The position numbers and the translations under genes were made by a program. The notes below the pieces were generated by a model. It saw only the letters and a program-made list of their open reading frames with translations, was not told the DNA's origin and made no database searches. Of a stretch of 49,034 bases of DNA, positions 1,802-27,667 are shown piece by piece; the first letter of the stretch is position 1; every line of letters begins with the position of its first letter. Source of the stretch: Candidatus Zymogenus saltonus (lineage in GTDB: Bacteria; Desulfobacterota; Zymogenia; Zymogenales; Zymogenaceae); contig JAFGIX010000014.1 of assembly GCA_016929395.1 (NCBI GenBank), forward strand, positions 1 to 49,034, given 5' to 3'.

Positions 1802-3808
1802 TTATATCTTCCGCCCCAGCTCGAAGCCGTTGTGGACGGCCTCGAACGCCTTGGCGACTCCCCCTGCGTCCCCGATAACCTTGACCGGAATCCCCATTTT
1901 TTTGATCTTCTCCTCGAGGGGGTTATGGGAGACCGACCCCGCGGCGATCACCACCGTGTCGGCGGGGATCTCCTTAAGCTCACCGGAAACGTTCACGTTG
2001 ACGGAAGTCTCGGTAATCTCGACGGCCTTCGTCCCCGTCATCACGTTCACGCCCGCCCTCTCCAGCTCCTGGAGGATCCCCCACCGGGTCGACTTTCCGA
2101 TATCGCTCCCTACCCTGTCCAACATCTCTATCAGCATGACCTCCTTTATCCCCTTAACAGCGATCTTTCTCAAGTCCTCCGGCGGCTCAGCACCTTTTAT
2201 AAGGAGAAACCTCAGCGCCTCGGGCGACGGCGTCCCCTTCCCCGCGAGGAATAGGGCCGTCTCCGTGCCGACGGCGCCCCCGCCGATGACAAGGACCCTC
2301 CTTCCCGTCCTTGCCCGATCTTCAAGGACGTCCCACGCCTGTGCGACATTGGGAAGGTCGGCACCCGGAATATTAAGCATCATCGGCCTCGCCCCCGTGG
2401 CAAGGATGACGAGGTCGGGCTTTTCCCTTTTGACTATTTCTTCGTCCACATCAACGTTGAGACTTACCGAGACACCGCTCCTCTTTACCTCCCCCGCGAG
2501 GTCATGGGACAGGGCGAGAAATTCCCCCCTCCCCGGCGGTATCCCGGCGATGTTCAGCTGCCCGCCGAGCCTTTCCCCCTTCTCGAATAGGGAGATGCCG
2601 TGGCCGCGCATCGAGGCAACCGCTGCCGCCGCCATCCCCGCCGCCCCTCCACCGACGACCATGATCCTCTTCGGCTCCTTAGTCTCCTCGATCGCCCTCT
2701 CTTTTTCGTGCCCAGCGAGCGGATTTACGAGGCACTCCACCGCCCTCATCTCGAAGAGGTGGTCAAAACATCCCTGGGCGCAACCGATGCAGTGGACGAT
2801 GCTCTCCTCTTTTCCGCCCTTGACCTTCCGGGGAAGATACGGATCCGAGATCAGTGCCCTTCCCATCGCCACCATGTCGCAAATCCCATCAAGCAGCATC
2901 TCCCTGGCGAGTCCCGGGTCGTTTATCCTGTGGCTAGCTACCACCGGGACGTCGACCTCCCTCTTTATCCCCGCGGTCAGGTAGTTGAATGCCCCCCTGG
3001 GCACCTCGGTCACTATCGTAGGCACCCTCGTCTCGTGCCAGCCCATGTTTATACAGAGGGCGTCGACGCCGTTTTCGACAAGCCTCTTCGCGTATATCTT
3101 TGTCCTCTCCCTTCCTATCCCACCTTCCATGAAGTCGTTTCCGTTTATCCTGAACAGCACCGGGTAGTCGTCCCCGACGGCGGCGCGTACCGCCCTCGCT
3201 ATCTCGATGCCGAAGCGCATCCTGTTCTCGAAGTCGCCTCCCCACTCGTCCTCCCTCTTGTTGGTTATCTCGGAGAGGAACTCGCTTATCAGGTAGCCTG
3301 CACCGCTCAAGACCTCGACGAAGTCGAATCCCGCCTCTTTTGTCCTCGCCGCCGCCCTTGCGAAGTCGGCGATCGTCTCTTTAACCTCCTCAGGCTCCAA
3401 CGCCCTCGGCATCTCCCTCGTGAACCTCGACCTCACCGCGGACGGCGCCACGGCCGGCCTGTTCCCTTCGATCAAAAACGATATATTGTATCTGCCGGAG
3501 TGGTTGATCTGAAGCCCCGCCACTGCCCCGTTTCCCTTGATTGCATCGGCAAGCTTTGTTAGCCCCGGGATGAACTCGTCCCTGTGGGCGCCGATGATCA
3601 TCCGGTTTCCCGCAGTAATGTTCACCGTGGCGTACCCGGTCACGATCGCCCCCGCTCCCCCCTTTGCCCGCTCGGCGTAGAAATCGATTATCCTGTCTGT
3701 GATCTTGTAGTCCTCGACCATGTTGAGGTGCATGGCCGGCATATATATCCTGTTTTTTATCTCGACGCCCTTTATCTCTATCGGCATAAACAGTGGATCG
3801 GTTTCCAT
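1802..3808 (-). CDS. FadH-type 2,4-dienoyl-CoA reductase / NADH:flavin oxidoreductase
   Basis: Multidomain iron-sulfur flavoprotein of 668 residues, close to E. coli FadH (672). Residues 1-330 form the Old Yellow Enzyme FMN barrel. Tyr at about 172 (GAGYLISEFLS) and His at about 258 (GWHETRVPTI) match the FadH active-site pair. Cysteines near 340, 343, 347 and 359 (C-x2-C-x3-C-x11-C) bind a [4Fe-4S] cluster. An FAD-binding motif (VVGGGAAGMAAAA) starts near residue 383, and a second Rossmann motif (VLVIGGGAVGTETA) follows for NAD(P)H. The family passes hydride from NAD(P)H through FAD, Fe-S and FMN to the double bonds of 2,4-dienoyl-CoAs or related enones. An upstream TTG would add nine residues, but the ATG at 3808 follows GGAGGAG at correct spacing and is preferred. 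The physiological substrate may differ from dienoyl-CoA. Confidence 0.92.
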   Translation of the reverse strand: METDPLFMPIEIKGVEIKNRIYMPAMHLNMVEDYKITDRIIDFYAERAKGGAGAIVTGYATVNITAGNRMIIGAHRDEFIPGLTKLADAIKGNGAVAGLQINHSGRYNISFLIEGNRPAVAPSAVRSRFTREMPRALEPEEVKETIADFARAAARTKEAGFDFVEVLSGAGYLISEFLSEITNKREDEWGGDFENRMRFGIEIARAVRAAVGDDYPVLFRINGNDFMEGGIGRERTKIYAKRLVENGVDALCINMGWHETRVPTIVTEVPRGAFNYLTAGIKREVDVPVVASHRINDPGLAREMLLDGICDMVAMGRALISDPYLPRKVKGGKEESIVHCIGCAQGCFDHLFEMRAVECLVNPLAGHEKERAIEETKEPKRIMVVGGGAAGMAAAAVASMRGHGISLFEKGERLGGQLNIAGIPPGRGEFLALSHDLAGEVKRSGVSVSLNVDVDEEIVKREKPDLVILATGARPMMLNIPGADLPNVAQAWDVLEDRARTGRRVLVIGGGAVGTETALFLAGKGTPSPEALRFLLIKGAEPPEDLRKIAVKGIKEVMLIEMLDRVGSDIGKSTRWGILQELERAGVNVMTGTKAVEITETSVNVNVSGELKEIPADTVVIAAGSVSHNPLEEKIKKMGIPVKVIGDAGGVAKAFEAVHNGFELGRKI

Positions 3809-24155: not shown

Positions 24156-25121
24156 ATGAAAATAAAAACTGGAGCGTTGATCCTGTTTTTCCTCCCCCTA
24201 TTTACGCTGTTACTCCTGCCCGGCGGCGATTTGGGCGGTGCCGGCGCGCAGCAATACTACAACATAGTAAACACTGTAAGCAGAAACAAAGACCAGAACG
24301 CCGTCACCAACATTTACTCTTTTGATGGATGCGTCTGGGTCTGCACGGAGGGGGGAGCTCTCAGCTACAAGGACGGCTGGAAGAAATACACAACGGCAGA
24401 CGGGCTTGCCCACAACCTCGTAACCTCGATGACGGTGGACAGCAAGGGGAGGCTCTGGTTCGGCACGAAAGAGGGCCTTACGATGTACGACGGCAAGTGG
24501 AAGACCTACAGGGATAAGGACGGCCTGCCGAGCAACACGGTCTTTGACGTAATCGAGGCCGACGACGGCACAATCTGGATTGGCACAAAAAACGGCATCG
24601 GAAAATTCGACGGCAATAAGTGGGTAAAGATAGGGATCGGGGACGACATAGCATCCCCCATCATAAACAGGATAGTCAAAGACCCAGCGGGACTGTTATG
24701 GTTCGGAACCTACAGCATGGGAGTGGGCATCATCGACTCGGGGAGGTGGGTGGTGATAGATGAAAAGGACGGGCTTTTGAGCAACCTCATATCTTCGATC
24801 GCCTTCGGCAAAGACGGGGAGGTCTGGATCGGGACATCTATGGGAATCGTCATGCTCAAGGAAGGGAAGGTAAAGGAGAGGTTTACGGTAAAAAACGGCC
24901 TTTTATCCAACACTATAACGTCTTTGATGATCGACTGGGAGGGGAGGCTCTGGTTCGGCTCATGGGGCGGCGGCGTGGGCATATACGACGGTAAGAGCTT
25001 TAGGTTCATCGGCACCGACGAAGGAATAGTTGACGACCGGGTGACCTCCCTGGCGATCGACGGTAACGGCGATATATGGATAGGCTGCTGGGGTGGGATA
25101 AGCAGGATCGTGCGGGAGTGA
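24156..25121 (+). CDS. Secreted seven-bladed beta-propeller (two-component regulator propeller repeats)
   Basis: A 321-residue protein with an N-terminal signal sequence (hydrophobic residues 5-24, cleavage probably near AGAQQ). It is followed by seven Reg_prop-type repeats, each with a W-(I/F)-G-T/S core (LWFGTKEGLTMYDG, TIWIGTKNGIGKFDG, EVWIGTSMGIVMLKEG, RLWFGSWGGGVGIYDG, DIWIGCWGGISRI). The usual partner modules of this repeat class, a YYY domain, transmembrane helix and histidine kinase, are absent. The protein is therefore a free-standing propeller, perhaps a ligand-binding or scaffold protein in the envelope. CGGAG six bases upstream supports the start. Partners are not evident from neighbours. 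Confidence 0.85.
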   Translation: MKIKTGALILFFLPLFTLLLLPGGDLGGAGAQQYYNIVNTVSRNKDQNAVTNIYSFDGCVWVCTEGGALSYKDGWKKYTTADGLAHNLVTSMTVDSKGRLWFGTKEGLTMYDGKWKTYRDKDGLPSNTVFDVIEADDGTIWIGTKNGIGKFDGNKWVKIGIGDDIASPIINRIVKDPAGLLWFGTYSMGVGIIDSGRWVVIDEKDGLLSNLISSIAFGKDGEVWIGTSMGIVMLKEGKVKERFTVKNGLLSNTITSLMIDWEGRLWFGSWGGGVGIYDGKSFRFIGTDEGIVDDRVTSLAIDGNGDIWIGCWGGISRIVRE

Positions 25122-25329
25122 CACTGGCTGCGGGCTGTTTTGATCGGGGGTAAGGGTACAGATAGATGGGTGAACATAGTGATTTGTGTAGTCGGTCTTC
25201 GGACTTTGTTCGTCGTCCTGCCAATAATTAACATATGTACTTTATATGCATTATTTATAACAATATAGTCATTATATATAATGGATGATTTCTTATTATA
25301 TAATTTATTAGCCATTCGTTATATAATAC

Positions 25330-25358
25330 TTGACATATACACTGCAACATGCTATATT
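25330..25358 (+). promoter_or_regulatory. Strong sigma-70 promoter in a gene-free region
   Basis: TTGACA at 25330-25335, exactly 17 bases, then TATATT at 25353-25358. The predicted start near 25365 opens a transcript with no reading frame of note that ends at an intrinsic terminator 150 bases later. Confidence 0.65.
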
Positions 25359-25364
25359 TCCCCA

Positions 25365-25520
25365 CATATAGTTGATTTTTTAAAAAACAGAGAGGCAGGA
25401 ATTCCAGGATTTCATCTTTTATGATGTAATTTGGAACTTCATCACTTTGCAATTATCCTTAGTGCATCATAAAACAAGGGCGCCGGTGGGATCTACCTTC
25501 TCCACGTTGGTGCTTTTTTT
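25365..25520 (+). ncRNA. Candidate non-coding RNA or attenuated leader
   Basis: About 155 bases bounded by a consensus-like promoter and a terminator, inside a 489-base gap. A long imperfect hairpin is visible: TTCCA, ATT and CATC on the left (25402-25416) pair with GATG, AAT and TGGAA on the right (25423-25436) around a six-base loop. The only start codon inside opens a two-codon frame (ATG ATG TAA at 25421). I do not recognise 6S, SRP, tmRNA or a known riboswitch. It may be an independent small RNA, or the leader of the two-TM protein gene at 25611, which has its own strong ribosome site 90 bases after the terminator. Confidence 0.5.
25480..25520 (+). terminator. Intrinsic terminator of the candidate ncRNA
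   Basis: GCGCC (25480-25484) pairs with GGTGC (25509-25513, one G-U), and GTGG (25486-25489) with CCAC (25502-25505), followed by seven Ts at 25514-25520. It lies about 390 bases after the propeller stop, further than expected for that gene. Confidence 0.65.
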
Positions 25521-25610
25521 AATTTGAATGAAGATACAGTTATGTTTAGGCAACTAATACAAGAAGATAATACTTGCATACTAAAAGGACTATAAAAGGA
25601 GGTATTAGAA

Positions 25611-26630
25611 ATGGAGCCAATGTGGGAAAAAATAATAGTCGGAGCCGTCTTTTCGTTTATGAGCATACTCTTGCCAATTGTCCCTGCGTATATACTTTAT
25701 AAATTTCTTCCTTCAAAGGCATCCGCAAAGGGGCCTTTTAAGGGTCTATCGCTCCAATTAAAGGGAGCATTTGCAGCATACTTTTTACTATTCATTTCTC
25801 TAAGCGGTATGTTGGTCGCCTACTTGTTAAATACAAAATCTGAATCCGAGATATATGATTTATGGAAAATTAGAGGTTGGGTCAAGCTTGAGGAAGATGG
25901 CGATGAATCAATGGTTAATTATACCATTAGTCCAGAAATTTTAAAAGTTGATCCGGGCAAAGTTGGTAACTTCATTATTACAGGTGTGCCATTACCGGCA
26001 AAAACAAGTGGAGTTATATCGCCAACAAAATTGACTATAGAGATGGAAGGTTATGAAACCATAGAAATATGTCTTGACAAAAGGAAGCCTGGTGTAAGTA
26101 CAGATTATGAACACGAAACCGTAGAAGAAGTAAAATTTGATGAAATAAGTAAAACTATCACGATTAATAGTAGTAGTAGTCCAATTATCCAAAGAAAACT
26201 AAAAGAAAAATACAATCCAAATCCACCCCCAACATCGATTGAGAAAACTCCAAAAACAACTTATAGCAATAACGATATAGTTCGTGGATCGATTATTGAT
26301 GTAACTACTGAAGGAAATACAAAACCCATCGAGAATATACCTGTAACACTATGTAATAGTAAAGGTGAGGATTGTTCTTCTCCTGTGTATACAGACTCAA
26401 AAGGGATGTATTACTTTTACGAAGTCCCACCCGGAGACTATATTTTAAAAATATGGATAAACGGATATGAAATGGGAAAACCACATATTCACAAAGTTGA
26501 AGTTTCGGACTATCGAAAATTAAATATTGTAAAAACTCCACATACCGATCCAAAGACATTTGAGTTTCTTAATCCTTCATATACTAACGTAAAGAGTTTA
26601 TCTATTGTACCAAATGACTTTAAAAAATAG
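25611..26630 (+). CDS. Two-TM protein with C-terminal carboxypeptidase-regulatory-like domain, unknown function
   Basis: A 339-residue protein, clearly AT-richer in codon use than its neighbours. Helices at about 8-32 and 50-72 anchor it, with a conserved-looking loop LPSKASAKGPFKGLSLQLKG between them. Residues 83-205 look like a beta-rich domain starting LWKIRGWVKLEEDG. A Pro/Thr linker (205-225) follows. About 228-310 resembles a carboxypeptidase D regulatory-like (prealbumin-type) fold: VRGSIIDV, PIENIPVTLCNS, TDSKGMYYFYEVPPGDYILK. AAAGGAGG before the ATG is a strong ribosome site. No family name is certain. The composition and isolation suggest acquisition by transfer. It may display beta-domains at the cell envelope. 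Confidence 0.7.
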   Translation: MEPMWEKIIVGAVFSFMSILLPIVPAYILYKFLPSKASAKGPFKGLSLQLKGAFAAYFLLFISLSGMLVAYLLNTKSESEIYDLWKIRGWVKLEEDGDESMVNYTISPEILKVDPGKVGNFIITGVPLPAKTSGVISPTKLTIEMEGYETIEICLDKRKPGVSTDYEHETVEEVKFDEISKTITINSSSSPIIQRKLKEKYNPNPPPTSIEKTPKTTYSNNDIVRGSIIDVTTEGNTKPIENIPVTLCNSKGEDCSSPVYTDSKGMYYFYEVPPGDYILKIWINGYEMGKPHIHKVEVSDYRKLNIVKTPHTDPKTFEFLNPSYTNVKSLSIVPNDFKK

Positions 26631-26998
26631 ATTTCTATCAAAATTTTTGTAAAGGCTAACTTGTCTTGAACTCTGGGGTAAGTGCAGAAGATCATTATTA
26701 CAACTTAAGAAAAGCAACTATAACTCTATTTTCCATGAAAGTGATCCTCTAAATCTAATCTAATCTAATCTAATCTAATACGAACCTCTATCAGTTACTA
26801 TCATTAATAACCGACTTCTCTAACTTATCTCCTGAAATCTACATTCAGATCGCTGTTGAAAATCGATGCGGCCTTAATTCGTTTTGAGAAACACCTGTCT
26901 CTATAATATCGGAATATCGGCCAAAAAATATCGTCACTATAATAAACGCTAAATACAAAATGATTCGACTTAAGGTATCATTGGAGTTTAAAATTGCA
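26631..26998. other. AT-rich gene-free gap with AATCT microsatellite
   Basis: 368 bases with no credible gene between the two-TM protein and the MBL hydrolase. The only structured element is a pentanucleotide repeat, five full AATCT copies from 26752 to 26776 plus a partial copy. No terminator is evident for either flanking gene. Confidence 0.7.
26752..26779. repeat. Pentanucleotide microsatellite (AATCT)5
   Basis: Five uninterrupted AATCT units followed by AAT. Short tandem repeats of this length can change copy number by slippage. It is about 120 bases past the stop of the two-TM protein gene, so phase variation of a coding frame is not implied. Confidence 0.85.
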
Positions 26999-27667
26999 TC
27001 ACAGATAGGGGAAGACCGACTTTTTTACCATCTCGAAGTTCCGCTCAATCTCTCCTTTCCCCGCAACCACCTGCATATGCCCGGGAAGGAGATACTCGAC
27101 GTCGAGCTTCGAGACCCGCTCGATGCTCTCCTTCAAGAGAGCGCTGTTTCCCCCGGGGAAATCCGTCCTGCCGACGTTCATGTAGAAAATCAGGTCGCCG
27201 GAGACAAGGACCTTCTTCTCCGGCCAGTATAGGCAGACCGAGCCAGGGGAGTGCCCCGGGGTTATGTAAGCCTCGAATTGGACCCCACCTATTTTGACAG
27301 TCCCGTCTTCAATAAACCGGTCTATCCTGTATTGGGGGATATCAAGCCCGAAGGCGGGGTAGAACTTCAAGCCCACATTCTCCAAAAAATCCGCCTCCGC
27401 CCGGCTCATCACGATGTTTACCCCGTCCACCTCCAAAAAGGCCTCGACCGCCTCGAAGTGATCCGGGTGGGAATGGGTCAGAAATACATTCTCAATATCC
27501 GCCGACTCAATTCCATCCTTGGAAAGCCTCTTTAACAGCTCCGGGAAAAACCGAGTCAGCCCGGGGTCGATCAACATCTTGGCGTCGCCGCCGATGTAAT
27601 AGCTGTTGCAGTTGTTCTCGAACATATCAGTCCAGGGATAGGCGAAAAGATCGTCCATAATTTTCAT
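26999..27667 (-). CDS. MBL-fold metallo-hydrolase (glyoxalase II-like)
   Basis: A 222-residue metallo-beta-lactamase fold protein. The metal-binding set is complete: HSHPDH (His65, His67, Asp69, His70), His139 (TPGHSPGS), Asp158 (SGDLIF) and His197 (LPGHMQ). The PGHSPGS motif and small size place it near the glyoxalase II / thioesterase-like group, which hydrolyses thioesters or lactones; the substrate cannot be assigned. AGGAG six bases upstream supports the ATG at 27667. It appears to be a single-gene unit; the Fe-S nitroreductase upstream on the same strand is 286 bases away. Confidence 0.88.
   Translation of the reverse strand: MKIMDDLFAYPWTDMFENNCNSYYIGGDAKMLIDPGLTRFFPELLKRLSKDGIESADIENVFLTHSHPDHFEAVEAFLEVDGVNIVMSRAEADFLENVGLKFYPAFGLDIPQYRIDRFIEDGTVKIGGVQFEAYITPGHSPGSVCLYWPEKKVLVSGDLIFYMNVGRTDFPGGNSALLKESIERVSKLDVEYLLPGHMQVVAGKGEIERNFEMVKKSVFPYL

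Follow-up and report, generated by a model that had tools for sequence, protein, structure and literature searches.

In the RCd22-abiF locus of the Clostridioides difficile phage phi027, a promoter, a 132-nt RNA and an intrinsic terminator are followed, with no second promoter in between, by a ribosome-binding site and the gene, and expression is lowered by premature termination (PMC12373285). Type III toxin-antitoxin operons show the same succession of promoter, RNA, terminator and gene (PMC5086642). The terminator likewise falls within the leader of a gene in attenuated 5' leaders and in riboswitches that end at an intrinsic terminator.

We analysed a stretch of 49,034 nucleotides of the genome of Candidatus Zymogenus saltonus (contig JAFGIX010000014.1, positions 1 to 49,034; hereafter "the window"), in which a promoter-terminator unit at 25330-25520 precedes a gene starting at 25611 (gene 25611; Table 1). 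The unit and this gene share the layout of RCd22-abiF, including the fact that the gene is horizontally carried, and that of the type III operons (ToxIN, AbiQ), a terminator being present here too between RNA and gene. The resemblance goes no further than order. The abiF motif (RF03085) was sought with Rfam at gathering and permissive thresholds and is absent from the unit. Nor does the unit hold any motif in two copies, and its protein and AbiF are not related. A search for tandem repeats in the RNA (25364-25475) gave none, and gene 25611 matches no toxin family, whether ToxN, CptN or TenpN-like. On these features (the missing repeats, the missing abiF motif and the absence of a toxin family) a type III or AbiF identity was rejected. 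That the short RNA is the antitoxin of a toxin or abortive-infection system, as the layout and the horizontal acquisition might suggest, is extremely improbable: the product of gene 25611 is a membrane/beta-domain protein, and it matches no toxin or defence family. Judged by these comparisons, the likeness to both systems is one of layout only. One can also imagine, by analogy with RCd22 acting on AbiF, a new RNA-controlled module in which a lineage-specific RNA, made in excess through the leader terminator, would restrain, in cis or in trans, the membrane-anchored protein that gene 25611 encodes on a mobile insert; RNA and protein are unrelated to that model, and we hold such a module to be very improbable. 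The unit looks like an ordinary terminated leader, and nothing so far points to a regulatory RNA.

Table 1. Features of the promoter-terminator unit, gene 25611 and the surrounding gap (window positions)
Feature	Position	Strand	Basis or remark
Sigma-70-type promoter TTGACA-N17-TATATT	25330..25358	+	11/12 consensus bases, TG extended -10
Body of inferred short RNA / 5' leader	25364..25475	+	Position relative to promoter; start inferred from the -10
Imperfect hairpin, ~13 pairs, six-base loop	25402..25436	+	Folding; unremarkable against shuffles
Alternative long-range stem TTTTATGATG/CATCATAAAA	25417..25474	+	Folding; mutually exclusive with the 25402-25436 hairpin; no overlap with terminator
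Intrinsic terminator with seven Ts	25476..25520	+	Folding and shuffle comparison
Spacer with Shine-Dalgarno AAGGAGG	25521..25610	+	Best sigma-70 promoter match only 8/12
Gene of 339 amino acids	25611..26630	+	Homology; sole insert gene so supported
Gap between convergent genes, ~1.88 kb (1877 bases)	25122..26998	.	Empty junction in two same-family genomes

An AT-rich insert between two convergent genes

The unit lies between a propeller gene (24156-25121) and a metallo-beta-lactamase-fold gene at 26999, which are convergent. The same two genes are convergent neighbours in G002 and G003, both of the same family, where only ~125 and ~63 bases separate them. Here the junction is filled by DNA with a GC content of 33% (25217-26930, the core of the insert) against 52.5% for the window, containing the promoter-terminator unit and gene 25611. 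The first-pass annotation had called this gene transferred-looking, which agrees with its lying in ~1.9 kb of AT-rich DNA that the two related genomes lack at this junction. Since the junction is empty in G002 and G003, the unit must have come with, or arisen in, acquired DNA. The one other genome from the genus, 88% complete, is uninformative on the junction: the propeller gene is without a match there, and for the lactamase-fold gene all matches are distant. The non-coding tail of the insert carries a pentamer repeat, AATCT, in 5.6 copies (26752-26779).

Promoter and terminator

The promoter TTGACA-N17-TATATT and the seven-T terminator that had been proposed at first reading are both found where they were placed, on the same strand and in that order, the promoter with a TG before its -10 element. 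The paired bases of the terminator span 25476-25517 and the run of seven Ts finishes at 25520; the segment 25474-25522 folds to -17.6 kcal/mol, a value equalled by 4 of 500 shuffles. A consensus terminator scanner overlooked it because of an internal loop in the stem. The open reading frames give no convincing gene within the interval, which had likewise been described as gene-free.

When the gap was shuffled 2000 times, 46 of the resulting sequences contained a promoter matching at least 11 of the 12 consensus bases. A joint test on dinucleotide shuffles required such a promoter and, 60-350 nt downstream on the same strand, a terminator of -15 kcal/mol or below: neither 2000 shuffles of the gap nor 500 of the whole insert produced the arrangement once, and at these strict thresholds the 25330 promoter with its terminator is the sole such arrangement within the window. 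When both strands of the window were scanned more loosely (promoter at least 10/12, terminator at -9 or below), only the 25476-25520 terminator was paired with a promoter, its partners being the promoter at 25330 and, in a second pairing, a weaker promoter at 25254. Because the joint arrangement is absent from shuffles and no other terminator was paired in the looser scan, both ends of the unit are in all likelihood genuine signals.

These figures bear on the idea that there is no functional unit here, the promoter being incidental to an AT-rich insert and the terminator serving as an insulator or as the 3' end of the propeller gene. AT-rich DNA does yield promoter-like sites (an expected 3.3 over the 1.2 kb scanned), no terminator is evident closer to the propeller gene, and conservation is absent. 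Nevertheless, an 11/12 extended -10 promoter followed by a strong co-directional terminator is not given by shuffles, and the terminator stands ~355 bases beyond the propeller stop codon, so that we consider this explanation unlikely.

Folding of the RNA interior

The long imperfect hairpin reported earlier at 25402-25436 is present; what does not stand is that it is remarkable. The region 25398-25440 folds to -10.8 kcal/mol, which 13 of 500 local shuffles match, and about 7% of shuffles of the interior hold an equally stable stretch somewhere when the interval is scanned. The entire interior (25366-25474) folds in an average way, 199 of 500 shuffles doing as well. The minimum-energy fold (-14.1) is in fact the alternative long-range pairing; as between the two folds, the pair probability of this alternative stem is ~0.29 against 0.71. 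No conserved motif was found in the leader.

Two mutually exclusive folds of similar stability ahead of a terminator could be taken to mean that the leader is a ligand- or protein-responsive attenuator, a new riboswitch-like element that switches between them. Neither fold touches the terminator, and switching alone would therefore leave termination unchanged. Nor was a convincing antiterminator found in the leader: no segment pairs strongly with the 5' arm of the terminator, and the best duplex between leader and terminator arm reaches -9.9 kcal/mol, as against -17.6 kcal/mol for the terminator. In addition, the leader matches no known riboswitch, and such an attenuator is highly unlikely. 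The element had earlier been described as a termination-controlled leader; the control was not borne out, since the antiterminator pairings available are poor rivals of the terminator. In this respect, and in having no matching Rfam family, the unit differs from described attenuated leaders and riboswitches.

Known RNA families and relatives of the unit

Comparison with the Rfam 15 families gave no match at the gathering score anywhere in the window and, at E<=10, only chance-level matches in the unit region, none of them credible; the earlier view that the RNA belongs to no known family thus holds. A match to 6S RNA or to a described riboswitch had been named as one outcome that would rename the candidate, and the window contains neither. 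6S RNA (RF00013) is of a length similar to that of the candidate RNA; no covariance-model match to it occurs in the window, and the 6S RNA of Candidatus Zymogenus saltonus lies elsewhere, on contig C3 (12640-12822, 109 bits). When the genome itself and 98 further genomes from the phylum were searched for copies of the unit, only short AT-rich chance matches came back, and the phage, plasmid and viral collections returned no convincing relative. The unit looks like something known from one genome.

The prediction of a promoter and a terminator by computer is a standard starting point for small RNA candidates, and both signals bound the unit. One rival reading is an independent, trans-acting small regulatory RNA of ~150 nt, with gene 25611 transcribed from a promoter of its own. 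Conditional terminators acting in cis are described as common in bacteria in the discussion of PMC6348098, so that a promoter and a terminator alone cannot separate a small RNA from a leader. A possible link to the gene is provided by the terminator loop TACCTTCT, which can pair with the Shine-Dalgarno sequence of gene 25611 over eight bases in a row, including one G-U pair. This pairing falls within chance: 444 of 1000 shuffled loops pair as well, and the longest helix between the RNA and the start of gene 25611 is matched by 48 of 300 shuffled RNAs. For the whole-RNA duplex, the score obtained with this start is reached by 32 of 1000 shuffles and ranks fourth among 42 gene starts, several gene starts of the window pairing better. 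Base-pairing between the gene's ribosome-binding site and either the loop or the full RNA was set aside as not convincingly above chance. With an interior that folds like shuffled sequence and no sequence relative in the genomes and collections searched, a trans-acting RNA is doubtful, although the missing conservation does not disprove it; the unit would gain importance as a novel small RNA only if a transcript and a target were shown.

A proposed terminated leader ahead of gene 25611

We give roughly even odds, or slightly better, to the reading that the acquired gene 25611 has its promoter and 5' leader in this unit and that the intrinsic terminator interrupts the leader. Transcription would start near 25364-25366 and most polymerases would halt at 25514-25520, releasing a short RNA of ~150 nt; polymerases that read through would make the mRNA of gene 25611, which carries a strong ribosome-binding site. 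The terminator would hold expression of a foreign, envelope-associated gene low. The cell thus probably makes the short RNA at the unit and full messages of gene 25611 only in part, and the short RNA itself is probably a by-product. Transcription of the unit, the feeding of gene 25611 by read-through and the direction of the effect are all proposed from sequence.

Several observations favour this terminated leader. The terminator lies between the promoter and a co-directional gene, the arrangement by which a termination-controlled leader is recognised, and that gene starts 91 bases beyond the terminator on the same strand. The joint promoter-terminator arrangement that shuffles fail to give, the empty junction in G002 and G003, an interior no more structured than chance, the weak antiterminator and the layout shared with RCd22-abiF count in the same direction. 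Because the spacer offers no sigma-70 match better than 8/12 while containing an AAGGAGG site, the simplest reading is that one promoter serves both the short RNA and the mRNA. Against it, a non-sigma-70 or weak AT-rich promoter may exist within 25521-25610, and the terminator may just as well act as an insulator or form the 3' end of the propeller gene. Between the two possibilities left side by side by the first-pass annotation, a leader of gene 25611 fits better, the independent trans-acting RNA finding no backing in conservation or structure. If a terminated leader is what the unit is, this would be one more acquired gene that arrived with a promoter and whose expression is held down by a terminator within the leader.

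Gene 25611 and its homologues

The product of gene 25611 has two predicted membrane helices at its N-terminus and a carboxypeptidase-regulatory-like domain at its C-terminus, the latter scoring below the cut-off of that Pfam family. Structure prediction from the single sequence gave a mean pLDDT of 43.8, a confidence too low for use. Homologues are rare: they were found in four other genomes among the 395 of the phylum sample, and in one of the four the match is confined to the common C-terminal domain. No relative was found in phage, plasmid or viral collections. The 500 bases upstream of three homologues (G198, G181 and G060) contain no comparable promoter-terminator leader; the gene has thus not kept this arrangement, a point against the leader reading.

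G181 and G060 carry the membrane part and the beta-domain part as separate genes side by side, one for a membrane protein with two helices, the other for a secreted carboxypeptidase-regulatory-like protein; gene 25611 resembles a fusion of these neighbours (L050:568-1472, + strand, in G181; L051:223-1253, - strand, in G060). That they are separate there and fusion-like here suggests that the two act together.

Upstream of the homologue in G181, the segment L050:404-560 has long complementary ends and resembles, by eye, an integron attC site. The homologue in G060 (L051, upstream of 1253, - strand) follows what appears by eye to be a DUF2235-type gene cut short after its start (MPKRIIICADGTWNTPDQ...), which suggests a disrupted locus. 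Upstream of the homologue in G198 are two hairpins (L049:3140-3176 and 3270-3330) with a nearly identical AGCCTCC arm, possibly tandem terminators or a small repeat.
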